64,000 nucleotides of DNA from Polyangium sp. 15x6 (GTDB lineage: Bacteria > Myxococcota_A > Polyangia > Polyangiales > Polyangiaceae), in NCBI RefSeq assembly GCF_029960785.1, contig NZ_JASBQE010000020.1, forward strand, positions 62,001 to 126,000, written 5' to 3'. The notes below the pieces were generated by a model, which ran no database searches, was not told where the DNA came from, and saw nothing but the letters and a program-made list of their open reading frames with translations. Below are positions 19,784-43,607 of the stretch, one piece after another. Within the stretch, counting starts at the first letter, position 1, and each line of letters starts with the position of its first letter. The position numbers and the translations under genes were made by a program.

Positions 19784-20773
19784 GTGGACAGGTCGGAAGC
19801 AGTGGATCGGCCAGGCGAGAAGGCCCTACGATGCGTCCTCGTGGCGACCGAGGCCGAGCGCAGCATCGAGGAGCGCGTCGCGGCGCTCGAACGGGCCCTC
19901 GCCGAGAAGGAGCGCGAGGCCGAGGTGCTGCGCGCGGAGCTCGCGCGAACGGTGGCCCAGCACGAGATCGATCGACGCAAGGCGAGCGGTGAGCTGCGCA
20001 TCCTCGCGGCGCTGACGGAGCATACGCCGGACGCGGTGGTGCTCGCGAACCCCGAGGGGGACGTGACGCACGTGAACGGCGCCTACCACCGGCTGTTCGG
20101 CCGTGACGAGGCGGTGCTCGGCACGCCGCTCGTCGACGCGCTCCGGCCGGGCGACGCATCGACGCGTGAGGCGCTCTACGCGGCGCTCGTGGACGGCAGC
20201 ACGTATCGCGGGATCCTCACGTTGCGCGGCGCGACAGGCGCGCCCTTGCCGGCGCAGGTCGACTGCTACGTGGTGCGCGCGGGCCCCGAGGAGGTGCTCG
20301 GCCTCGCCGCCGTCGTCCAGGACCTCTCGGAGGAGCAGCGGGAGGAAGTGGAGCGCGCGGAGCTCGAAGCGAAGGTCATCGCCTCGCAGGAGGCGCTGAT
20401 CCGCGAGCTCTCGACGCCGCTCGTGCCGATCGCGGAGGGCGTCATCGCGATGCCGCTCGTCGGCTCGATCGGCGACGCGCGCGCGCAGCAGATCCTCGAA
20501 GCGCTGCTCGCTGGAATCCAGGAGCACCGGGCGGAGGCGGCGATCCTCGACATCACGGGCGTGCCGACGGTCGACACGTCGGCGGCGAACGCGCTGATCT
20601 CGGCGGCGCAGGCGGCGCGGCTGCTCGGGACGAAGGTGATCCTATCGGGGATCGGGCCGGCCGTGGCGCGGACCTTGGTGGAGCTCGGCGTGGAGATGCG
20701 AGGGATGACCACGAAGAGCACGCTTTCGGCCGCGATTGCGGAGGCGATCGGGCCGGCCTGGCGGAGGCGGTAG
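19784..20773 (+). CDS. PAS-STAS protein (RsbR-like)
   Basis: 329 residues from a GTG; a second GTG about 18 codons later is an equally plausible start. A coiled coil (residues 25-65, ERVAALERALAEKEREAEVL) precedes a PAS domain (about 68-180, HTPDAVVLANPEGDVTHVNGAYHRLFG), a short linker helix and a C-terminal STAS domain (about 212-325). The STAS core DITGVPTVDTSAANAL keeps the threonines (262, 265) at which RsbR-type proteins are phosphorylated. It is likely a cytoplasmic sensor in a stressosome-like partner-switching network. No RsbS or RsbT gene is adjacent. Confidence 0.85.
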   Translation: MDRSEAVDRPGEKALRCVLVATEAERSIEERVAALERALAEKEREAEVLRAELARTVAQHEIDRRKASGELRILAALTEHTPDAVVLANPEGDVTHVNGAYHRLFGRDEAVLGTPLVDALRPGDASTREALYAALVDGSTYRGILTLRGATGAPLPAQVDCYVVRAGPEEVLGLAAVVQDLSEEQREEVERAELEAKVIASQEALIRELSTPLVPIAEGVIAMPLVGSIGDARAQQILEALLAGIQEHRAEAAILDITGVPTVDTSAANALISAAQAARLLGTKVILSGIGPAVARTLVELGVEMRGMTTKSTLSAAIAEAIGPAWRRR

Positions 20774-21672: not shown

Positions 21673-22766
21673 AGACTTCACGCCTCGTGCTCGTTTTGCT
21701 CTCGATGTCGGCGCTCGTCCTGGGATGCGAGGAGGAAACGGAGGACGTCGTTTATTCCTGCGACGACCCGGACATCGGCCACTTCGATTCCAAGGGAAAC
21801 CCCGACCCGTGCCATCTGGAGGGGAAAGGGCAGCAGCAATCGGTTTGCCGGGGCGGCTGCGAGGAGGTTTCCCTGGAGTTCGAGCGGACGATCGTCGCAT
21901 TGTGGGTGGGCCCCGAGGGCCGGGAGCCCGCGTGCCCGAAGCAGGCGCCCAAGGCGGTCTTCAATGGTTATGCCGGGCTTTTGGCCCCGAACACGTGCCC
22001 GCCGTGCCAATGCTCCGAGCCCTCGTGCGTCTTGCCCTCGGTGAGCGCGACGGCGGGGGACGCGTGTGCTGGGAGCATCGTCGGCGCGTTCGAGCCGCCG
22101 CCCGCGTGGGAAGGCGGGTGCCTCGCGGGGCCGCCGCTCGAGCCTGGGACGTTCAGCTCGGTGCACATCGGGGCCCCGAGCACGGCGGGGTGCGAGCTCG
22201 TCGAGGATCCCGTGCCGCCCCCCCATTTCGCCTATGCCTGGCCGGCCCAGTGGGCAGAGGCGGCGCGGGCTTGCGCGGCTGAAGAAGAGGAGGGGGCGCC
22301 CGCGTGCGCGGGGGCGCCGTGCGTGCGTGGGATCGAGGAGCTTCCGGCCGGATTCCGGCGATGCCTCCGATACCCCGAGGGGACGGCGGAGAGCGAGTCG
22401 CAGGCGTGCCCGGCGGCGTTTCCGGAGCGGCGCGTGTTCTTCGCCGGCCTCTCGGATACGCGCGAATGCGCTGCGTGCTCGTGCGCGCCGCCGGAGGACG
22501 CGATCTGCATCGCGTCGGTGGACGCCTTCCAGGACGCGACCTGCGCGGGCGCACCCATGCCGCTCTTCCAGAACGTGCCTGTCGGGATGAACAGCCCGGT
22601 CTGCTACGACACGTCCATGCCCCTGGCCCTCGGCTCGATCTCCGCGACGTGGCTGGCGGAGGAGCCGGGGTCCTGCGTGGTGACGGGCGGCGAGACGATC
22701 GGCGAGGCGGTGCCCACGGACCCAAGCGTGTTCTGCTGCGAGCCGCTCGTGATTCCAGCGGAGTAG
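21669..22766 (+). CDS. Cysteine-rich lipoprotein of unknown function
   Basis: 365 residues from the ATG within ATGA. The lipoprotein signal ends LVLGC (Cys20). The mature protein contains about 26 cysteines, many in pairs or CxxC groups (CPPCQC, CAACSC, FCC), pointing to a disulfide-stapled extracellular protein. Two internally similar segments, each about 150 residues with CPxA...F and C..CxC spacing, suggest an ancient duplication. I do not recognise the family. It is coupled to the barrel-like lipoprotein, and its stop codon is immediately followed by the 21-bp repeat array. Confidence 0.7.
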   Translation: MKTSRLVLVLLSMSALVLGCEEETEDVVYSCDDPDIGHFDSKGNPDPCHLEGKGQQQSVCRGGCEEVSLEFERTIVALWVGPEGREPACPKQAPKAVFNGYAGLLAPNTCPPCQCSEPSCVLPSVSATAGDACAGSIVGAFEPPPAWEGGCLAGPPLEPGTFSSVHIGAPSTAGCELVEDPVPPPHFAYAWPAQWAEAARACAAEEEEGAPACAGAPCVRGIEELPAGFRRCLRYPEGTAESESQACPAAFPERRVFFAGLSDTRECAACSCAPPEDAICIASVDAFQDATCAGAPMPLFQNVPVGMNSPVCYDTSMPLALGSISATWLAEEPGSCVVTGGETIGEAVPTDPSVFCCEPLVIPAE

Positions 22767-23139
22767 GTCGGCGACCTCGTGCTCGTGGTCCAAGGACCTC
22801 GTGCGCATGGTCCAAGGACCTCGTGCGCATGGTCGGCGACCTCGTGCGCATGGTCGGCGACCTCGTGCTCATGGTCGGCGACCTCGTACTCATGGTCGGC
22901 GACCTCGTGCGCATGGTCGGCGACCTCGTGCGCATGGTCGGCGACCTCGTGCGCATGGTCGGCGACCTCGTGCGCATGGTCGGCGACCTCGTGCTCATGG
23001 TCGGCGACCTCGTACGCATGGTCGGCGACCTCGTACGCATGGTCGGCGACCTCGTGCTCATGGTCGGCGACCTCGTACGCATGGTCGGCGACCTCGTACG
23101 CATGGTCGGCGACCTCGTGCTCATGGTCGGCGACCTCGA
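22767..23139. repeat. Minisatellite of 17 complete 21-bp units
   Basis: Tandem repeat filling the gap between two convergent genes. Typical unit: GGTCGGCGACC followed by TCGTGCGCAT. Units 2 and 3 are 22-bp variants (GGTCCAAGGACC core); the remainder are 21 bp. Two positions vary (GTG or GTA, then CGC or CTC), and the last seven units follow a three-unit higher-order period. Each typical unit contains the interrupted palindrome GGTCG-G-CGACC. The first unit begins right after the TAG of the Cys-rich lipoprotein. Frames stay open because 21 is a multiple of 3, but no start, ribosome site or protein-like composition supports coding. Confidence 0.95.
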
Positions 23140-23163: not shown

Positions 23164-26100
23164 CTACCCCCGCTTCCGCGCCCCCATCGCAAACGCGATC
23201 CCCGCCTGCAAGCTCCCCTTCGTCACGATCCCCGTCAGCTCCGCCGAGCTACCCACGAGCGACCGCGCCACGTCCGCGCGCATGCCCGTCAGGATCGCCT
23301 GCGCCCCGAGCAGCCGGAGCGCCGACGCCGTCCGCACGAGCGCCTCCGCGATGTAGATGTCGCCGCCCTTCACGCCCGTCACGTCGAGGATCACCGCGCG
23401 CGCCCTTCGCTCCGACGCGCCGCGTAGCGCCGCCCCCATCACCTCGTCCGAGCGCGCTCGATCCATCGTCCCGATGAGCGGCATCACCACCACGTCGTCC
23501 GTGATCGGGATGATCGGCGTCGACAGCTCCGCCAGGCGCTCGCGCTGCACGTCGATGATGTGCTGCTGCAGCGACTCCCGCTCGAGCTCCGCGATCATGC
23601 GTTGTTCGAGCTCGAGGCGAAGCTGTTCCGCCGTCTCGTTCGCCTCCCGCGTCCGTCGCCCGACCTCCTCTTCGAGGCCCTCGTTCGTGCGCAGGAGCTC
23701 CTCCGTCACGCGCTGCACCTCCGTGTAGAGCAGCGCGCTCTCCACTGCGGCGCCCGCCTGCGAGGCGAGGAAGTCCACGAGCACGAGCCGCGCCGGCACG
23801 AACGCCTCCGTCGCGAGCGCGTGCTCGAGGTAGATGATCCCCACGAGACGGCCCTTGTGCAGCATCGGCGTGCACAGGATCGAGCGCGGCGCGCGCGCCA
23901 CCATGTACCGATCCTTCGCGAAGCGCCGATCCGATCGCGCGTCGCCGAGCAAGAGCGGCTCGCGCGTGCGCCGCACGTACTCCACCACCGAGAGCGGCAG
24001 ATCCTCCGTCTCCTCCGCCAGCACGCTCGGGCCCGCCGTCAGCCGCTCCGGGTCCACCACCATCGTCGCCTCGACCCAGAGACGACCGCCCCGCTCGATG
24101 AGCAGCATCCCCCGGTCCGCGCCCGCGCTCTCGATGACGGCGCGCACGACGCGCAAGAGCACGCGCTCGAGGAGGATCTCGCCCGCGATCGCCTGCGCCG
24201 CGCGGATGACCGTGGCCGTGTCGAGCGTCGCGAACGAACGCTCGCCGGGGCTCGAGTTCGCCGGCATGTCCCAAGGCGGCGTCTCGTTCTCCCAGAGATC
24301 CTCGTACCGCGCCGCGATGTTCTCCACCTTCGCGCGCGCGCCCCAGCGCAGGTAGCCCTTGCGCGCGTCGAGCACGTAGGCGCGCGCGAGGCGCTTGCGG
24401 CCCCGGGCGATGTGATGCTCGGCAGCGCGCTCGCTCGCGAGCGCCTCGTCCTTGATGTACTTGTGCTCGCACGCGCCCGCGATCGCCGCCTCGAAGAGGT
24501 CGATCGCCTCGGCGTCGCGTCCCTCCGCGCGCGCGCGCTCGGCGCGGACGAGGTCGAGCCGGTGCTGGTACGTCTCCGGGCAGCTTCGCGCGAGCGCCGC
24601 GAGCTCGGCCTCGCGACGATCGAGGTCCGCCCGCCTTCGCGCCTGATCCCCGGGCGTGCCGGTGTTCATGAGCGCCGCCGCGACGATCGCGCCGTGGAAG
24701 ACGACCTCCGCCGCGAAGTACTGGGCGACGACCGTGGGGAGGAGCGCATCGGCCTCGGCGCACGCCTTCTCCGCGAGCTCGAGGTCGTGGAAGAGCAGGG
24801 CGAGTTCGAGGCGCGCCGCGTGGTAGCGGCACGCGATGAACGGGAGCTTCCGCTCGACGAGCGAGGCGACGAACGAGACCTCTTCGAACTCCCGATCCGA
24901 CAGCGAGATCCGACCCCGCGTCCGGCCGCGCAGGCAACGGATGAGCTGGTACATGATCCGCAGGTACGCCTCCGAGGTCGTGTCCCGCGTCTTCTGCATC
25001 AGCGTGAGGAAGCCCTCGGCCTCCTGCTCGACGACGGCGAGGTCTTCGCCGATCCCGAGCCGGAGCCCCGTCGTCGAGAAACACGCGTACGAGAGGAACG
25101 AGAAGTCGCCCGTCGCGAGCCCCTCGCGCTGCGCGCGTTCGAGGAACGGCAAGCACGCCGAGAGCGGGCGGCGGAACGGGTGCAAGGTCGCGCCCTGGTT
25201 CAGGTAGACCTTGCACGCGATGGTCGGGCTCGGCAGGCGCTCGTGCAGGCGCAGCGCGATCTCGCCCATCCGATGGGCCTCTTCGTACCGCCGCGCCGCG
25301 ACGAGGCTCATGCCGTGCGCCGAGAACCCGTACGCCGAGAGCTCCGTCGGGCCCCACGCGAGCGTCGCGCGCACCATGCGCGCGCACACGAAAAACATGA
25401 GCGACGGCGACGTGCCGTACGACGCCGACACGAGGTGCATGAGCGTCCGCAAGGTCGCGCGCTTGCGCGCGTCGTCGAGCGGCGGCGCCGAGGTGATCGA
25501 CTCGACCGAGCGCGCCTCGAGCTCGGCCGCGAGCTCGGCTTGCTCCTTCGCGAGCGCCTCTTCGAGCGTCGCCTCGTCGGGGAGCGTCTCGCCGAGGAGC
25601 GCGAGCGCCTCGCGGCCCACGCGCACCGCGTCCGCGAACCGTCCCTGCGTCACGTAGAGCACGACGAGCAGGTCGTGCACGCCCGCGCGATCGAGCGCGG
25701 AGGTCGCGTGCGAGAGAAGGAGCGCGAAGAGCTGCTCGGCCTCGTGGAACTGGCCCGTCAGGTACGCGCACGCCGCGCGGTCGCGCGTGAGCGCGAACGT
25801 GAGGAACGACTGCTCCTCCCAGCCACGCTCGCCGACGAGCTCCATGCCCGTCGCGAGGTAGCCGATCGCCGCCTCGTACGCGGCCGCGCCCTTCGCTTGT
25901 TGTCCGGCGTCGAGCGCGAGCTTCGCGACCTCCAGCCGCTCGGCCGGATCCGTCATCACGGCGATGCCGCGGCTCATGTGGAGGAGCAGCTCGAAGAGGC
26001 CCTCGCCCTCGGCGCCGATCTCGTCGCGCAGCCGCCGCCCGATCGCGAGGTGCAGGTGCGGCACCTCCTCGGGGCGCAGGAGCGAGTAGGCCGCCTGCTG

Positions 26101-28167
26101 GACCTTGTCGTGCGAGAACCGGAACGCGCGCGGCGCGAGCGGCTTGGGCGGGGTCGACTTGCCCGATCCGCGCGGCGAGAATTGTCGCACGCGCACGGGG
26201 AGCACGAGGCCTTCGGTGAGCGCCGCGGCGAGGTCCGCGCGCACCTCGGACTCGGGGCGATCGGCGAGCGCCCCGAGCGCGTCGATCTCGAACTCGTGCC
26301 CGAACACCGACGCGAGCACGAGCGTGCGCTGCGCCGCCGGCGAGAGGTCGCCGATCTTGTCGAGCAAGAGCGTCACGATGTCGTCGGTGACCGTCTCCTC
26401 GATGCGCGCCTCGTCCGAGACCACGGCGCCCGTGGCCGGATCGACCTCGACGAGGCCCTCGCGCACGAGCGTGCCGAGGAGCTGCCGGATGAAGAGCGGG
26501 TTGCCGCTCGTCTTGCTCCACAGGAGCACGCCGAGCGACTCGACGTCCGCGAGGTCGCAGCCGAGCAGCCCCGCGACGAGCGCGCGCACGTCGGACGGCC
26601 GGAGCGGCCGGAGCTCCACCTTCGACACGGGCACGCCTTGCCACTCGATCTCGTCGATGACGCGCCCGATCGACCGGAAGCCGTCGCCGTCCTCGCGGCC
26701 GCGGAACGCCACGATGACGAGCAGGTAGCTCGACTGCGGATCGGCGAGCAGGTCGCGCAGGAGTTTCAACGAGGCAGGGTCGGCCCACTGCAGATCGTCG
26801 AGGAAGAGCAGCACCGGGCGGCGCCGCGTGAACACCGACAAGAAGCGCTGCACGACGAGCGCGAAGCGGTTCTGCGACTCGATCGGGCCGAGGTCCGGCG
26901 CGGCCTCCGCGGGCCCGCCGAAGAGCAGCCCGACCTCGGGGACGACGCGCGTGACGAGCTCGGCGTTCGGCCCGAGCGCCGTGTCGATCTCGCTGCGGAT
27001 GCGCGCGAGCTCGGACTCGCTCTCGGCGAGGGCCGCGCGCACGAGCTCGCCGAGCGCGTGGCCGAAGCCCGAGAACGGCAGGCCTTGCCCGATCGGATCG
27101 AACTTGCCCGTGACGATGTAGGCGTCGTCGGGGCCGATGCGCGTGGCCGCGTCGAGCACGAGCGCGGTCTTGCCCATGCCGGCGCCGCCCTGGATGGCGA
27201 AGAGCTCACGCCCGCCGCGCCGCGCTCGCTCGATCGCCGAGGCGAAGTTCTCGCGCTCCGCGTCGCGGCCGTAGAGGCGCACCGCCGACGCCAGCATCGT
27301 CGGTCGGTCCTGGCCGCCGAGCGGGAAGGGATCGATGCGACCCGATTTGCGCAGGCGCGTGAGGCATGTCTCGAGGTCGGCGACGAGCCCGCGCGCGCTC
27401 TGGTACCGATCGTCGGCGCCCTTCGCGAGCAGCTTGAGCACGATGCGCGACACGGCCGGCGGCACGTTCGGCTCGAGCTCGTGCGGCGGCTTCGGCGTGC
27501 GCGCGAGGTGCGCGTGCACGAGCGTGACCGGGTCCTGCGTGGTGAAGGGCGGCGAGCCCGTGAGCATCTCGTAGAGCACGGCGCCGAGCCCGTAGAGGTC
27601 GGCGCGATGATCGACGGGGCGGTTCGTGCGGCCCGTCTGCTCGGGCGGCATGTACGCGAGCGTCCCCTCGGGCGCTTGCGGGTTCGGCGCGCGCAGGGAC
27701 TCCTCGCCGACGCGCGCGGCCGAGGTGAAGTGCAGGATCCAGACAGCGTCGTCTGCCTCGCGGAAGAGGATGTTTTTCGGGGCGATGTCGCGGTGGACGA
27801 TGCCGTGCGCCGCGAGCGTCGAGAGCGCTCGCCCGAGCGCGGCCGTGATCTCCAGCGCGGTCTCGATGCGCAACCTTCGCGACGCGAGCAGCTCCGCGAG
27901 CGTGCTTCCGCCGGGGTCGGCGCGGAGCAGCGCGAACACGTCGCCGTGCTCGACGAGGCCGAGCGTGCGCGGGACGATGGAGTCGCCGAGGTCCTTGGCG
28001 ATCGCGTGGGCGCGGCGGATCCTCGCGCGTTCCTCGCCGCGGGCGCGGGCACGAGCCGTCTCGACGAGCACGGGCGTGCCGTCTTCGAGGTGGCCGCGAT
28101 GCAGAGCGAAGCGCGCGTCCTCAGCGAGCGTTGCGAAGATGGTACAGCCGGGGAACTCGGGAACCAT
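23164..28167 (-). CDS. PknK-like signalling protein: pseudokinase, AAA ATPase, TPR, GAF, STAS
   Basis: 1667 residues; ATG with GGAGG upstream. Order of domains: Ser/Thr-kinase fold (1-265), AAA/STAND ATPase (about 300-640; Walker A GGAGMGKT with Lys333, Walker B VLLFLDDLQWAD), a long helical TPR-like region (650-1270), GAF (about 1290-1460), a coiled coil and an RsbR-like STAS domain (from about 1547). The kinase keeps HRD (125-127) and Asn132, but the ATP-binding lysine is Glu36 and the DFG aspartate is His146 (HFT), so it is probably inactive. The STAS motif reads DVTGVKGGDIYIAEAL, lacking the usual phospho-threonine. No histidine-kinase domain is present. It is likely a cytoplasmic scaffold or sensor. 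Confidence 0.88.
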   Translation of the reverse strand: MVPEFPGCTIFATLAEDARFALHRGHLEDGTPVLVETARARARGEERARIRRAHAIAKDLGDSIVPRTLGLVEHGDVFALLRADPGGSTLAELLASRRLRIETALEITAALGRALSTLAAHGIVHRDIAPKNILFREADDAVWILHFTSAARVGEESLRAPNPQAPEGTLAYMPPEQTGRTNRPVDHRADLYGLGAVLYEMLTGSPPFTTQDPVTLVHAHLARTPKPPHELEPNVPPAVSRIVLKLLAKGADDRYQSARGLVADLETCLTRLRKSGRIDPFPLGGQDRPTMLASAVRLYGRDAERENFASAIERARRGGRELFAIQGGAGMGKTALVLDAATRIGPDDAYIVTGKFDPIGQGLPFSGFGHALGELVRAALAESESELARIRSEIDTALGPNAELVTRVVPEVGLLFGGPAEAAPDLGPIESQNRFALVVQRFLSVFTRRRPVLLFLDDLQWADPASLKLLRDLLADPQSSYLLVIVAFRGREDGDGFRSIGRVIDEIEWQGVPVSKVELRPLRPSDVRALVAGLLGCDLADVESLGVLLWSKTSGNPLFIRQLLGTLVREGLVEVDPATGAVVSDEARIEETVTDDIVTLLLDKIGDLSPAAQRTLVLASVFGHEFEIDALGALADRPESEVRADLAAALTEGLVLPVRVRQFSPRGSGKSTPPKPLAPRAFRFSHDKVQQAAYSLLRPEEVPHLHLAIGRRLRDEIGAEGEGLFELLLHMSRGIAVMTDPAERLEVAKLALDAGQQAKGAAAYEAAIGYLATGMELVGERGWEEQSFLTFALTRDRAACAYLTGQFHEAEQLFALLLSHATSALDRAGVHDLLVVLYVTQGRFADAVRVGREALALLGETLPDEATLEEALAKEQAELAAELEARSVESITSAPPLDDARKRATLRTLMHLVSASYGTSPSLMFFVCARMVRATLAWGPTELSAYGFSAHGMSLVAARRYEEAHRMGEIALRLHERLPSPTIACKVYLNQGATLHPFRRPLSACLPFLERAQREGLATGDFSFLSYACFSTTGLRLGIGEDLAVVEQEAEGFLTLMQKTRDTTSEAYLRIMYQLIRCLRGRTRGRISLSDREFEEVSFVASLVERKLPFIACRYHAARLELALLFHDLELAEKACAEADALLPTVVAQYFAAEVVFHGAIVAAALMNTGTPGDQARRRADLDRREAELAALARSCPETYQHRLDLVRAERARAEGRDAEAIDLFEAAIAGACEHKYIKDEALASERAAEHHIARGRKRLARAYVLDARKGYLRWGARAKVENIAARYEDLWENETPPWDMPANSSPGERSFATLDTATVIRAAQAIAGEILLERVLLRVVRAVIESAGADRGMLLIERGGRLWVEATMVVDPERLTAGPSVLAEETEDLPLSVVEYVRRTREPLLLGDARSDRRFAKDRYMVARAPRSILCTPMLHKGRLVGIIYLEHALATEAFVPARLVLVDFLASQAGAAVESALLYTEVQRVTEELLRTNEGLEEEVGRRTREANETAEQLRLELEQRMIAELERESLQQHIIDVQRERLAELSTPIIPITDDVVVMPLIGTMDRARSDEVMGAALRGASERRARAVILDVTGVKGGDIYIAEALVRTASALRLLGAQAILTGMRADVARSLVGSSAELTGIVTKGSLQAGIAFAMGARKRG

Positions 28168-28303: not shown

Positions 28304-29335
28304 TCAGGGTTTGGGGGGAGACGGCTGGTGGGGCGCGCGTGTCTTCGGCGTCCACCCCTTGGAGAAGGCGCCGTGTTTCTTGGGGGTGGGCTGGGGCGGC
28401 GGGCGCCAGAGCGTCGGATCGGCCTCGGCGGCGGGGTCGGGGGCGGCGTCGGCGCAGCAGCGGAAGGAGACGAAGTAATAGGTGAACTCCGGCTCGTGGC
28501 TCACGGTCATGGGCCGGCAGGCGTTGCGCACGTGGCCCCAGGCGCCGCCTTTGAGCCCCGCCCACTTCGACTTTTCGTAGTTCTTCTCCGCGTTGACCCA
28601 CTCGTCCACGTTCCCGGTTTGATCGTGGACGCCGAACCCGCTCGCGCAGCCGGGCATCTCGCCGCTCGAGACGCTCTGGTCGAGCCGAAAGAGCTCCTGA
28701 TCCTGGATCCAGGCCTCGCGCGAATAGATGTTCTTGAGGACGGGCTGATACCAGGGGTTGTCGATGTTGCAGGTTTTCGGGTCGCGCTTGTACCCATAAG
28801 GGAAAGGCGTCTTTTTCGGCCCTTCACAGGCCGCGACCCACTCGCTCTCCCAGCAGAGGCGTTTTCCCTGCTCCTGGCACATTTGCAGCGAGTCGTACCA
28901 GTCGACCATGACCGGCGGGTGCGCGCCCTCTTTGTTCGGGTACTCGTATTTGTCGATGCAGTATCGCTGCCGCCGGAGCTCCGTCTTGCACTTCTGCGCC
29001 TGCTCGGCGAACTCGTGGCAGATGATGATCTTGTTCGGCTTGTTGTGCTCTTTTTTCAGGCACTCGAGCTCGACGTCGGGGCAATACGTCGTGTCGACGA
29101 AGGCCATGCCCTCCGGGCAGGGCGACTTCGGTTCGGCCTCGCTCGCTGGCGCCGCGCTCGCGCTCGGCGCGGCCGTTTCCGCCGCGGGAACGAGCTCCGG
29201 CGGAGGCGCGCTCGGCGCCGCGCTGGGCACGCCCGTCGCGTTCGCCCCTTTTGGTAACTCCGTCGGACCGCCGCAGCTCGATGCCGTGAGGGACATCACG
29301 GCAGCTGCGGTCAACAAGCTCAAATTCGATCCCAT
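28304..29335 (-). CDS. FGE/SUMF1-like lipoprotein (first of two)
   Basis: 343 residues from the ATG at 29335, which starts a lipoprotein signal ending near SSCGG; a longer frame upstream has no signal. An Ala/Pro/Ser linker precedes a formylglycine-generating-enzyme-type (C-type-lectin-like) domain: CIDKYEYPN, GKRLCWESEWVAACEG, GVHDQTGNVDEWV, LKGGAWGHVRNACRP and FRCC. In true FGE the RGGSYLC...C motif has two catalytic cysteines; here the first position is His268 and only Cys273 remains, so sulfatase activation is unlikely. It is divergent from sucC (37 bases apart). A paralogue lies at 48830-49867. Confidence 0.85.
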   Translation of the reverse strand: MGSNLSLLTAAAVMSLTASSCGGPTELPKGANATGVPSAAPSAPPPELVPAAETAAPSASAAPASEAEPKSPCPEGMAFVDTTYCPDVELECLKKEHNKPNKIIICHEFAEQAQKCKTELRRQRYCIDKYEYPNKEGAHPPVMVDWYDSLQMCQEQGKRLCWESEWVAACEGPKKTPFPYGYKRDPKTCNIDNPWYQPVLKNIYSREAWIQDQELFRLDQSVSSGEMPGCASGFGVHDQTGNVDEWVNAEKNYEKSKWAGLKGGAWGHVRNACRPMTVSHEPEFTYYFVSFRCCADAAPDPAAEADPTLWRPPPQPTPKKHGAFSKGWTPKTRAPHQPSPPKP

Positions 29336-29372
29336 GCTGGACTCATGCGTGTGATACCTTGCCCGCCCTCGC

Positions 29373-30566
29373 ATGAAAATCCACGAGTATCAAGCCAAGC
29401 AAATCTTCGCACGCTACGGGATCCCCGTGCCGAAGGGTGAGCCTGCCTTCTCCGTGGCGGAGGCGGAGGCCGCGGCGAAGCGCCTGATCGAGGCGACCGG
29501 GATCCCGGTGGTCGTCGTGAAAGCCCAGATCCACGCCGGTGGTCGCGGCAAGGGCGGCGGCGTGAAGGTCGCCAAGGGCGGCGTCGCCGAGGCGCGAAAG
29601 CTCGCCGAGCAGATCCTCGGCATGCAGCTCATCACGGTGCAGACGGGCCCCGAGGGGCAGAAGGTCCGCAGGCTCTACATCGAGCAGGGCCTCGACATCG
29701 ACCGCGAGATCTACCTCGCGCTCACGCTCGACCGGGATCGCCGCCGCATCGCGGTGATGGCCTCGCGCGAGGGCGGCATGGACATCGAGCAGGTCGCCCA
29801 CGACACGCCCGAGAAGATCCACACGCTGCACATCGACCCGGTGATCGGCCTCGCCCCCTACCAGGCGCGCAAGCTCGCGTTCGCGCTCGGGCTCGGGGCG
29901 AAGGAGCAGATGCGGCAGTTCACGAAGCTCGTCGACGGCCTCTACAAGTGTTTCCTCGCCGAGGACTGCTCGCTCGTCGAGATCAATCCGCTCGTCGTGA
30001 CGAAGAAGGGCGACATCGTCGCGCTCGACGGCAAGATGACGTTCGACGACAACGCCGAGATCCGCCACCCCGAATGGGCGGATTTGCGCGACGCGGACGA
30101 GGAAGATCCGGTCGAGCTCGAGGCGAAGAAGGTAGGCATCTCGTACGTCTCGCTCGACGGCGACATCGGCTGTCTGGTGAACGGCGCGGGCCTCGCGATG
30201 GGCACGATGGACATCATCCTGCACTACGGCGGCAAGCCCGCGAACTTCCTCGACGTCGGCGGCGGCGCGACGCAGGAGCAGGTGAAGAAGGCGTTCCAGA
30301 TGATCCTTCGCTCCGACAAGGTGAAGGGCATCTTCGTCAACATCTTCGGCGGCATCATGCGCTGCGACGTGGTCGCGGCGGGTATCGTCGCGGCGACGAA
30401 GGAGCTCGGCCTGTCGGTGCCGCTCGTGGTGCGGCTCGAAGGCACGAACGTCGAGGCGGGTCGCAAGATCCTCGACGAGAGCGGCCTGAAAATCGAGAGC
30501 GCCTCCTCCATGGGCGACGGCGCGCAAAAGATCGTCGCCGCGGTGAAGCAGGGCGCCGCGGCCTGA
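29373..30566 (+). CDS. sucC: Succinyl-CoA ligase (ADP-forming) beta subunit
   Basis: 397 residues, the usual length. [20 protein letters not shown] is the classic N-terminus of the ATP-grasp domain; [16 protein letters not shown] binds nucleotide, EINPLVV is the metal/nucleotide end of the grasp fold, and the C-terminal CoA-ligase domain contains [11 protein letters not shown] and GGGAT. With SucD it interconverts succinyl-CoA and succinate, making ATP or GTP in the TCA cycle. It is followed 40 bases later by sucD and clearly forms an operon with it. Confidence 0.97.
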
Positions 30567-41132: not shown

Positions 41133-43607
41133 ATGCCCACGAAGCGCCAAGTCCTCGACATCCTCACCCGCCAGGAGCTCTGGGAGCTCGTCGACCGCCA
41201 CCACGTGACCGTCACCGATCGCCGCTCGAAGGAGAAGATCGCCGCCGAGCTCGACGCTCACGGCCCCGCGCTCCCCGAGCTCCTCGCGGGCTTCTCGCGC
41301 GACCGCCTCAAGGAGCTCTGTCGCGAGCTCGCGCTCGACGACGGGGGCCGGGACAAGGCCGTCATCATCGCGCGGCTCGCGGGCGCGGCGTGGGCGAACG
41401 GGGCGCCGGTCGAGGGGGAGGTCGCGAAGGCCGCAGCCACGGAGCCGAAGTCGGCCCAGATCGAGCTGCCCCTCGGGCCCACGCCCCCGGCCGTGCCCCC
41501 GCGCAAGGCCGCGACGAACGTGACGCCCACGCCGGTCCCCCCGTCGCCCCGCAATTTCCAGAGCTTTCGCGAGATCACGGATTTCCTCTGGCAAAACGCT
41601 GAGCGGCTCCGGGGGGTGTACAAGCCGAACGAATATGACAAGGTCATCCTGCCGCTGCTCGTCGTGCGCCGGCTCGAGTGCGTGCTCGCGCCGACGAAGG
41701 ACAAGGTCCTGAAGAAACTCGCGGAGCTCCAGGGCAAGGGGATGAAGGTGGCGGATCCGATCGTGGACTCCGTCCTGCGCAAGACCTCGGGTGTGCCGTT
41801 CTACAACACGTCGCCGCTCGATTTCGAGCGATTGACGGGCGACTCGCAGCAAATCGCGCAGCACCTCCGTAGTTACTTGAAGGCGTTCTCGCCGAATGCG
41901 CGGGACATCATCGAGCAGTTCAAGTTCGACGAACAGATCACGCGGCTCGACGAGGGGAACCTGCTTTTTCAGGTGGTCAAGCTCTTCGCCGAGGTGAACC
42001 TGCATCCGGACGTCGTGTCGAATCACGTGATGGGGCGCGTGTTCGAGGAGCTGATCCGGCGGTTCAACGAAAAGAAGAATGAGGAGGCGGGTGATCATTA
42101 CACGCCGCGCGAGATCATCCGGCTGATGGTCGATCTGCTGTTCATCGAGGACGACGACGTGCTCCAGAACCCCGGTATCGTGCGGACCTTGCTCGATCCG
42201 GCATGCGGGACGGGCGGGATGCTCTCCGTCGCGGAAGAGTACCTGTTCGAGCTGAATCCGCAGGCGAAGCTGGAGGTGTTCGGACAGGAGCTGAACGCCG
42301 AGACGTATGCGGTCTGCAAGTCGGATATGATTATCAAGGGGCAAAACCCCGACAACATCGTTCGCGGGAACTCGTTCTCGGACGATGGGCACGCCGAGCG
42401 GAAGTTCGACTACATGCTGTCGAATCCGCCGTTTGGCGTCGACTGGAAAAATGTCCAGACGAAGGTGCAGGCCGAGCACGAGAATCTCGGGTTCGCGGGG
42501 CGGTTCGGGCCAGGATTGCCGCGGATCAACGACGGGGCGCTGCTCTTCCTGATGCACATGATTGCGAAGATGAAGCCCGTCGACAAGAAGACGGGCGAGG
42601 GCGGGAGCCGGATGGCGGTAGTGTTGAATGGGTCGCCGCTGTTCACGGGGGACGCGGGGTCGGGGGAGAGTGAGATCCGGCGGTGGATCCTCGAAAACGA
42701 CTGGCTCGAAGCGATCGTGGCGTTGCCGGATCAGCTCTTCTACAACACGGGAATCGCGACGTACGTCTGGGTGATCACGAACCGGAAGCCGGCGCATCGG
42801 AAGGGGAAGGTGCAGCTCATCAATGCGACGGAGCTGTACCAGAAGATGCGCAAGTCGCTCGGGAACAAGCGGAACGAGCTCGGGGCGGGGCACATCAAGA
42901 CGATCGTCGACACCTTTGGTGATTTCGTCGAGAGCGAGGTCTCGAAGGTGTTCGACAACGAAGACTTCGGGTACCGGCGCATCATCGTGGAGCGCCCGCT
43001 GCGCTTGAACTTCCAGGCGTCGCCGGAGCGGATCGATCGGCTGCGGGAGGAGTCCGGGTTCGTGAACCTCGCGAAGGCGAAGAAGGGGGCCTCGGGCGAA
43101 GGGCGAGCGCTCCAGGAGGCAATCCTACGGACGCTCACGCACCTCGATGCGGCGAAGGTGTACAAGAGCCGACCGGCATTCGAGGCGGCGCTCGAGGCGG
43201 CGGTGCTGGCGGAGGGGGTGGATCTGGTGGCGCCTGCGCGAAAGGCGATCCTCGCGGCGCTGTCGGAGCGGGACGAGACGGCGGAGGTTTGCCTGGATGC
43301 CAAGGGGCGGCCGGAGGCGGATTCCGAATTGCGGGATTACGAGAACGTGCCGCTGAAGGAGGACGTCGCGGTCTACTTCGAACGGGAGGTGAAGCCACAC
43401 GTGCCGGATGCGTGGATCGCGGGGGTAGAGATGCGGGGCGGGAAGGCCCTGGTGGTGGATGAGGACAAGGTGAAGGTTGGGTACGAGATACCGATCACGA
43501 GACATTTTTATAAGTATACGCCGCCGAGGCCGCTAGAAGAAATCGAGACCGACATCCGGGGGCTGGAGAAGGAGATCCTAGCGCTACTCGGCGAGGTGCT
43601 GAAATGA
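41133..43607 (+). CDS. hsdM: Type I restriction-modification methylase subunit with N-terminal SAP-like extension
   Basis: 824 residues, longer than the common 500-600. Residues 1-90 form a helical extension (ELWELVDRHHV ... RLKELCRELALDDGGRDKAVIIARL) resembling SAP/Rho-N DNA-binding modules, then a Pro-rich linker. The HsdM core begins about 145 with its N-terminal helical domain. SAM-binding motif DPACGTGG is at 355-362 and the catalytic NPPF at 431-434. The C-terminal region includes DLKEDVAVYFEREVKP-like sequence typical of the family. It methylates adenine at N6 in a site chosen by HsdS. The stop overlaps the hsdS start (ATGA). Confidence 0.95.
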   Translation: MPTKRQVLDILTRQELWELVDRHHVTVTDRRSKEKIAAELDAHGPALPELLAGFSRDRLKELCRELALDDGGRDKAVIIARLAGAAWANGAPVEGEVAKAAATEPKSAQIELPLGPTPPAVPPRKAATNVTPTPVPPSPRNFQSFREITDFLWQNAERLRGVYKPNEYDKVILPLLVVRRLECVLAPTKDKVLKKLAELQGKGMKVADPIVDSVLRKTSGVPFYNTSPLDFERLTGDSQQIAQHLRSYLKAFSPNARDIIEQFKFDEQITRLDEGNLLFQVVKLFAEVNLHPDVVSNHVMGRVFEELIRRFNEKKNEEAGDHYTPREIIRLMVDLLFIEDDDVLQNPGIVRTLLDPACGTGGMLSVAEEYLFELNPQAKLEVFGQELNAETYAVCKSDMIIKGQNPDNIVRGNSFSDDGHAERKFDYMLSNPPFGVDWKNVQTKVQAEHENLGFAGRFGPGLPRINDGALLFLMHMIAKMKPVDKKTGEGGSRMAVVLNGSPLFTGDAGSGESEIRRWILENDWLEAIVALPDQLFYNTGIATYVWVITNRKPAHRKGKVQLINATELYQKMRKSLGNKRNELGAGHIKTIVDTFGDFVESEVSKVFDNEDFGYRRIIVERPLRLNFQASPERIDRLREESGFVNLAKAKKGASGEGRALQEAILRTLTHLDAAKVYKSRPAFEAALEAAVLAEGVDLVAPARKAILAALSERDETAEVCLDAKGRPEADSELRDYENVPLKEDVAVYFEREVKPHVPDAWIAGVEMRGGKALVVDEDKVKVGYEIPITRHFYKYTPPRPLEEIETDIRGLEKEILALLGEVLK

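Follow-up and report, generated by a model that had tools for sequence, protein, structure and literature searches.

The gene at positions 23164..28167 (minus strand) of a 64,000-nucleotide stretch of the Polyangium sp. 15x6 genome (contig NZ_JASBQE010000020.1, positions 62,001 to 126,000; the window) predicts a 1667 amino acid (aa) protein. Translation of the open reading frame and Pfam matches indicate a kinase-like domain followed by an AAA/STAND ATPase, a possible TPR region, a GAF domain and a STAS domain. As judged from the alignments, the N-terminal domain is a pseudokinase that is fixed across six Polyangium species, and residues 1-275 very probably lack ordinary Mg-ATP kinase activity. 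An orthologue of the protein is present in all six Polyangium genomes searched, that of the window and five others, with whole-protein identities of 91-96%. A previous sequence-only reading had called the domain a pseudokinase and the protein an unusual derivative of PknK. The first call is now stronger than was stated, and the claim of rarity is wrong.

Kinase active site

The kinase-fold domain with a degenerate active site covers residues 8-275 (27343..28146; this and all other features of the gene are on the minus strand), as defined by a Pfam Pkinase match to residues 45-256 (E 2.1e-21), an AlphaFold2 model and Foldseek. Translation and paralogue alignments place E36 (28060..28062) at the beta-3 ATP-lysine (VAIK) position, and A53 (28009..28011) aligns with the alpha-C Glu. 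The DFG Asp position is occupied by H146 (27730..27732) in the sequence H146-F147-T148, and an alignment with PknB is in the same register. E36, A53 and H146 are found in 6/6 orthologues, none of which has the Lys, Glu and Asp of an active Hanks-type kinase. The Gly-rich loop is also lost in all six, the corresponding region of the window protein being AEDARFA. The catalytic-loop motif H125-R126-D127 (27787..27795) is retained, and D127 and the following N132 are kept in every orthologue. The sequence-only reading had listed Glu36, H146-F-T, HRD at 125-127 and Asn132, all of which reappear here; the losses at A53 and in the Gly-rich loop add to its pseudokinase call, as do the predicted fold and the low substitution ratios described below. 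Ala also replaces the catalytic-loop Lys (HRDIAPKN), a Lys that is missing too from some paralogues whose motifs are otherwise intact, L003 and L004 among them.

A shifted alignment could in principle place a true lysine and DFG motif elsewhere in the domain. Residues 1-57 contain no Lys in any of the six orthologues and there is no Asp between residues 141 and 185; the motifs are therefore not recovered in any other register, and a WNK-like rescue lysine was ruled out on the same Lys-free segment. Sequencing error as the source of the losses was ruled out because six species agree, and chance is likewise unlikely given that the losses are common to proteins 91-96% identical.

The retention of HRD and N132 weighs on the other side, as the domain may still bind nucleotide to some degree or have an unusual activity. 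One such possibility is that the domain is a non-canonical enzyme, catalysing for example AMPylation or glutamylation in a rearranged site built on the HRD Asp and the Asn that are still present. Precedents are SelO and SidJ (PMC12599244), and the conservation of D127 and N132 in 6/6 orthologues together with the low substitution ratios of the domain would fit, but the window protein has lost active-site residues and is free of Lys in residues 1-57, and this explanation appears very improbable.

Predicted fold and selection

The AlphaFold2 model of residues 1-290, built from a 74-row alignment, is a complete kinase fold (mean predicted local distance difference test, pLDDT, 92.1; predicted template modelling score, pTM, 0.92). 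Its first Foldseek match in PDB is Mycobacterium PknB (5u94; template modelling scores 0.77/0.85), a bilobal kinase fold.

Ratios of nonsynonymous to synonymous substitution (dN/dS) were calculated by the Nei-Gojobori method with our own script for the six orthologues. The N-lobe has the lowest estimate within the 1667-aa protein, 0.088, with a wide interval (0.027-0.194), and of 1000 equally large codon sets drawn at random only 2.6% were as low. Values elsewhere are 0.194 for the C-lobe, 0.111 for the AAA domain, 0.337 for the part following it, 0.263 for the TPR region, 0.116 for GAF and 0.199 for STAS. Four intact-motif paralogue groups have N-lobe values of 0.174 to 0.450, and in three of these groups 72.8-98.3% of random sets were as low. 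The orthologues L008, L113, L120, L129, L132 and L137 form a second degenerate group, which carries Glu in place of the ATP lysine, together with GFG. Its N-lobe dN/dS is 0.050 (0.1% of random sets as low).

Several observations weigh against a selective signature of the pseudokinase state. The N-lobe interval of the window protein overlaps those of the C-lobe, AAA, GAF and STAS domains, and the N-lobe of the fourth intact group, L004, is likewise low relative to the rest of its protein (4.2% of random sets as low). The degenerate L019 group has an N-lobe value of 0.241 (85.6% of random sets as low), and values for the degenerate groups L017, L018 and L006, given without intervals, are 0.200, 0.362 and 0.409, the first two resting on very low dS and the last on three sequences. 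Because these degenerate groups are higher and intact L004 is low, a low N-lobe dN/dS cannot be taken to identify a pseudokinase; the constrained N-lobe belongs to the 1667-aa protein and the L008 group and not to pseudokinases in general. The packing of the domains is also unsure, as a model of residues 1-700 has a pLDDT of 86.5 but a pTM of 0.67.

These data also bear on whether the kinase domain is a drifting relic, tolerated after loss of use while the rest of the protein works. The stem branch leading to the window clade is long, at 1.13 changes per column versus 0.47 for L173, its nearest intact-motif relative, which speaks for a relic. However, six species keep identical substitutions, the dN/dS values of both lobes are at or below those of most of the remaining protein, and the fold is predicted at a pLDDT of 92, making a relic improbable.

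Degeneration in the family

Paralogues and relatives were collected by taking the 30 best-scoring family matches in the window genome, where weaker ones exist, all 109 places at E≤1e-60 in the five other Polyangium genomes, together with six rows representing two further genera. The 145 aligned rows were reduced to 142 on removal of L029 (kinase part missing), L151 (an identical copy) and L158 (a contig-end fragment). Kinase domains with the Lys, HxD and DFG Asp all present were scored as intact, and those failing this three-residue rule as degenerate.

Degenerate domains account for 68/142 rows, nearly all rows being from the six Polyangium genomes, and for 15/29 rows among the best-scoring matches taken from the window genome. 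By eye, 13 of the 68 were judged to have a missing or poorly aligned N-lobe, and 55/129 rows are degenerate when these are set aside. The alpha-C Glu is present in 74/74 intact-motif rows versus 22/68 degenerate rows, and the N132 position is N in all 74 intact-motif rows. The protein is thus not the unusual derivative of PknK that had been proposed, since nearly half of its aligned family is degenerate and fusions of CP1 pseudokinases to COG3899 ATPases are already in print (PMC12599244).

Kinase degeneration arose several times, as required by the trees. On a quick tree based on the AAA domain the state must have changed 9 times or more, with 6 changes forced by well-supported branches. A more careful 44-row tree with the motif columns masked needs 7 (6-8 among bootstrap replicates), of which 4 are forced. 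One set of paralogues, L021, L123, L133, L135, L142 and L155, has an unaligned or missing N-lobe, HQN in place of HRD (HLN in L155) and no DFG Asp, with Walker A intact; by its sequence this group has an even more reduced kinase domain.

Relatives of the window protein were also sought outside the genus. In 53 other genomes, identity is at most 42% among the matches listed (E≤1e-300, up to 8 candidates scored per genome). When 289 genomes of the class were searched with residues 1-700 (3 candidates scored in each), 37 genomes outside the genus had matches at E≤1e-125, and the best-match loci from 24 of these (L172-L195) are up to 45% identical. The Lys, HxD and DFG Asp are intact in 23/24 of these loci, the exception being L192. 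In a 35-row tree with ten of the out-of-genus rows added, the window clade groups with the intact-motif locus L173 (support 97/96). The earlier 44-row tree lacks L173 and places the window clade with the L006 group, in which E36 and H146 are also found (87/92); in the quick AAA-only tree its neighbour is the L009 group (89), with long branches that the program flagged. Separate origins of degeneration in the window clade and the L006 group are tentatively favoured.

STAS domain and lost phosphorylation sites

The C-terminal STAS domain, residues 1537-1663 (23179..23559; Pfam STAS on 1551-1637, E 7.8e-9), is of the RsbR type; neither it nor the GAF domain before it was noted in the sequence-only reading. 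Its nearest relatives in PDB are Listeria RsbR chains (6qcm, 7b0u; best phmmer E 1.1e-23), and the ten best of 17 matched PDB sequences are RsbR or STAS chains of RsbR length. RsbT targets T171 and T205 in Bacillus and T175 and T209 in Listeria (PMC6614362), and Thr209 and Thr241 are named in PMC9237128. The register was taken from an alignment with Listeria RsbR, which has Thr at chain positions 175, 209 and 241. The equivalent of T175 (B. subtilis T171) is R1570 (23458..23460), R in 6/6 orthologues, and the equivalent of T209 (B. subtilis T205) is I1604 (23356..23358), I in 4 and V in 2 of the 6. On this alignment the STAS domain has lost both RsbT-target Thr positions. T1597 in DVTG, T in 72/72 STAS rows, was rejected as the phosphorylation site because the Listeria RsbR register gives R1570 and I1604.

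Among the 142 family rows, 72 end in STAS like the window protein (29 intact-motif, 43 degenerate), 61 in a histidine kinase (44 and 17, respectively) and 9 match neither query (1 and 8). Within the STAS-ended rows the T175 position is without Ser or Thr in 42/43 degenerate and 19/29 intact-motif rows, and both positions are without Ser or Thr in 25/43 degenerate rows. Linked loss of kinase motifs and STAS phosphorylation sites was not shown, as the number of independent pairs on the tree, 2 when only well-supported branches count and 5 when all do, is too small for a test. Both positions are likewise lost in 10/29 intact-motif rows, which counts against the role proposed below.

Proposed role and candidate partners

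The AAA_16 (STAND-type) ATPase core spans residues 297-485 (26713..27279; Pfam AAA_16, E 6.1e-35), with Walker A at K333 and Walker B at D457-D458. G332-K333, D457 and D458 are invariant in the 66/66 aligned family rows, bearing out the intact ATPase with Lys333 recognised in the sequence-only reading. A helical TPR-like region is placed at residues about 735-1290 (24298..25965); its extent is inferred, the weak TPR_12 match to 792-858 (E 5e-4) falling under the curated cut-off. The GAF domain occupies residues 1333-1475 (23743..24171; Pfam GAF, E 2e-14).

Taken together, the protein could well be an RsbR-type sensor subunit with a pseudokinase input, driven by its STAND ATPase and GAF domain and acting without being phosphorylated, though this reading is tentative. 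The kinase fold, unable to carry out ordinary Mg-ATP phosphotransfer, would serve as a protein-binding or allosteric module. By analogy with their families, the intact STAND-type ATPase may act as an ATP/ADP switch, the TPR-like repeats may form arms for partner proteins and the GAF domain may sense a ligand. The STAS domain would join a stressosome-like RsbR/RsbS assembly and pass on or damp the signal, presumably while itself unphosphorylated because both RsbT-target positions are lost.

Mutants of B. subtilis suggest that, even without its target sites, a subunit could transmit a signal by allostery or have a damping effect on the particle. With four RsbR paralogues present, T171A reduces the response 100-fold; with RsbRA as the only one the reduction is 10-12-fold, and a minimal stressosome of RsbRA T171A and RsbS S59A retains 21% of the wild-type response (PMC3944199). 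However, RsbRA T171A and RsbS S59A with all four co-antagonists give a 0.2% response (PMC3944199), which speaks against simple phosphorylation-free signalling and lowers confidence in the full mechanism.

Possible partners are encoded in the same genome, which has 5 HATPase_c_2 and 6 SpoIIE matches at E≤1e-8. On another contig (G000:C261; L201:431-3600), a PAS-STAS gene and a short STAS gene are followed by two HATPase_c_2 genes and one SpoIIE gene, which lie together. This order resembles an rsbR-rsbS-rsbT-rsbX cluster, the names being assigned by analogy; against this, NCBIfam models did not name the genes RsbS or RsbT. A further PAS-STAS protein is encoded near the giant gene, at 19784-20773 on the plus strand, and by eye it has Thr at the RsbR T209 position.

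Alternatively, the protein may be mainly a STAND-type ATPase scaffold to a partner outside the stressosome, with a STAS domain that only dimerises or serves another STAS network. The 61/142 family rows that end in a histidine kinase show that the front module works with different outputs, and at least 53 matches in the window genome cover the STAS end only, so many other STAS proteins are present. The RsbR type of the STAS domain, at E 1.1e-23 to Listeria RsbR, and the rsbRSTX-like cluster in the same genome count against a scaffold of this kind, which is possible but rather unlikely.

Comparison with known systems

The window protein fits the HstK/CP1-type kinase-ATPase proteins as these are described, and is tentatively filed with them on that basis. 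About 40% of CP1 kinases are pseudokinases (O'Boyle et al. 2025, PMC12599244). CP1 kinases are reported to lack transmembrane regions, and all CP1 pseudokinases are joined to a COG3899 ATPase and often to FhlA/GAF or PAS domains (PMC12599244). The window protein is similar in that AAA_16 directly follows its kinase-like domain, a GAF domain is present, and degenerate sites are frequent in its family. A difference is that neither 'STAS' nor 'Myxo' appears in the available text of that review. No paper title on a STAS-ended form in myxobacteria was found among the matches listed in the open-licence literature, which is not proof of absence.

Cyanobacterial HstK or cbSTKIII dual kinases are 'KD' kinases with GAF and HisKA (PMC2176072). 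They share with the window protein an N-terminal kinase and a GAF domain preceding a C-terminal signalling output, and 65/74 intact-motif family rows have HKD. Unlike HstK, which has a histidine kinase output, the window protein ends in STAS, has HRD rather than HKD and a degenerate active site. Mycobacterium PknK has been called a STAND protein (PMC9045387), and by that description it too joins a kinase domain to a STAND ATPase. Unlike the window protein, PknK phosphorylates substrates, and none of the 16 NCBIfam matches listed for the window protein is to a model named PknK. A GAF and RsbR-type STAS tail is not known to be part of the PknK architecture.

The C-terminal STAS is like that of the RsbR co-antagonists and YtvA (PMC6614362, PMC9237128, PMC3944199). 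Those proteins have a non-heme globin or LOV input, whereas the window protein has a pseudokinase-ATPase-GAF input and has lost both RsbT-target Thr. EssB/YukC is likewise a bacterial pseudokinase with a degraded Gly-loop and motifs and is said to be a scaffold (PMC12599244), but it is a type VII secretion membrane protein, and an ATPase, GAF or STAS domain is unmentioned for it in the accessible sections of that source.

Genomic context

A 21-bp tandem repeat of 17.7 copies (22766-23138) lies 25 bases past the stop codon of the 1667-aa gene. Arrays of period 21-22 are also found about 1.2 kb past the orthologue in L031 and 2.7 kb past that in L033, and only two-copy stretches are seen in L032. 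Directly upstream on the same strand is a gene for a protein with an FGE-sulfatase (SUMF1-like) domain (28304-29374, minus strand), the N-terminus of which appears lipoprotein-like by eye. An HsdM-type N6 DNA methylase gene (41133-43607, plus strand) lies in a stretch of lower G+C content (0.643 and 0.627 at 40-48 kb), which is possibly a restriction-modification island.

Implications for bacterial pseudokinases

The window protein is a good example of a described pseudokinase class and not an oddity. For CP1-type pseudokinases no known role is given in the available text of the review (PMC12599244). A single Polyangium genome contains both intact and degenerate paralogues, with an RsbR-type STAS as an identifiable output, and likely partners can be sought there; the role of a bacterial pseudokinase is therefore directly testable. 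A broader picture, doubtful as a whole, is that Polyangium may possess many giant stressosome sensors, each combining a kinase-STAND-GAF input with an RsbR-type STAS in one protein. Some, including the window protein, would have been silenced at both ends, with a dead kinase and an unphosphorylatable STAS, and would act as purely allosteric, ATPase-driven subunits that tune the particle.
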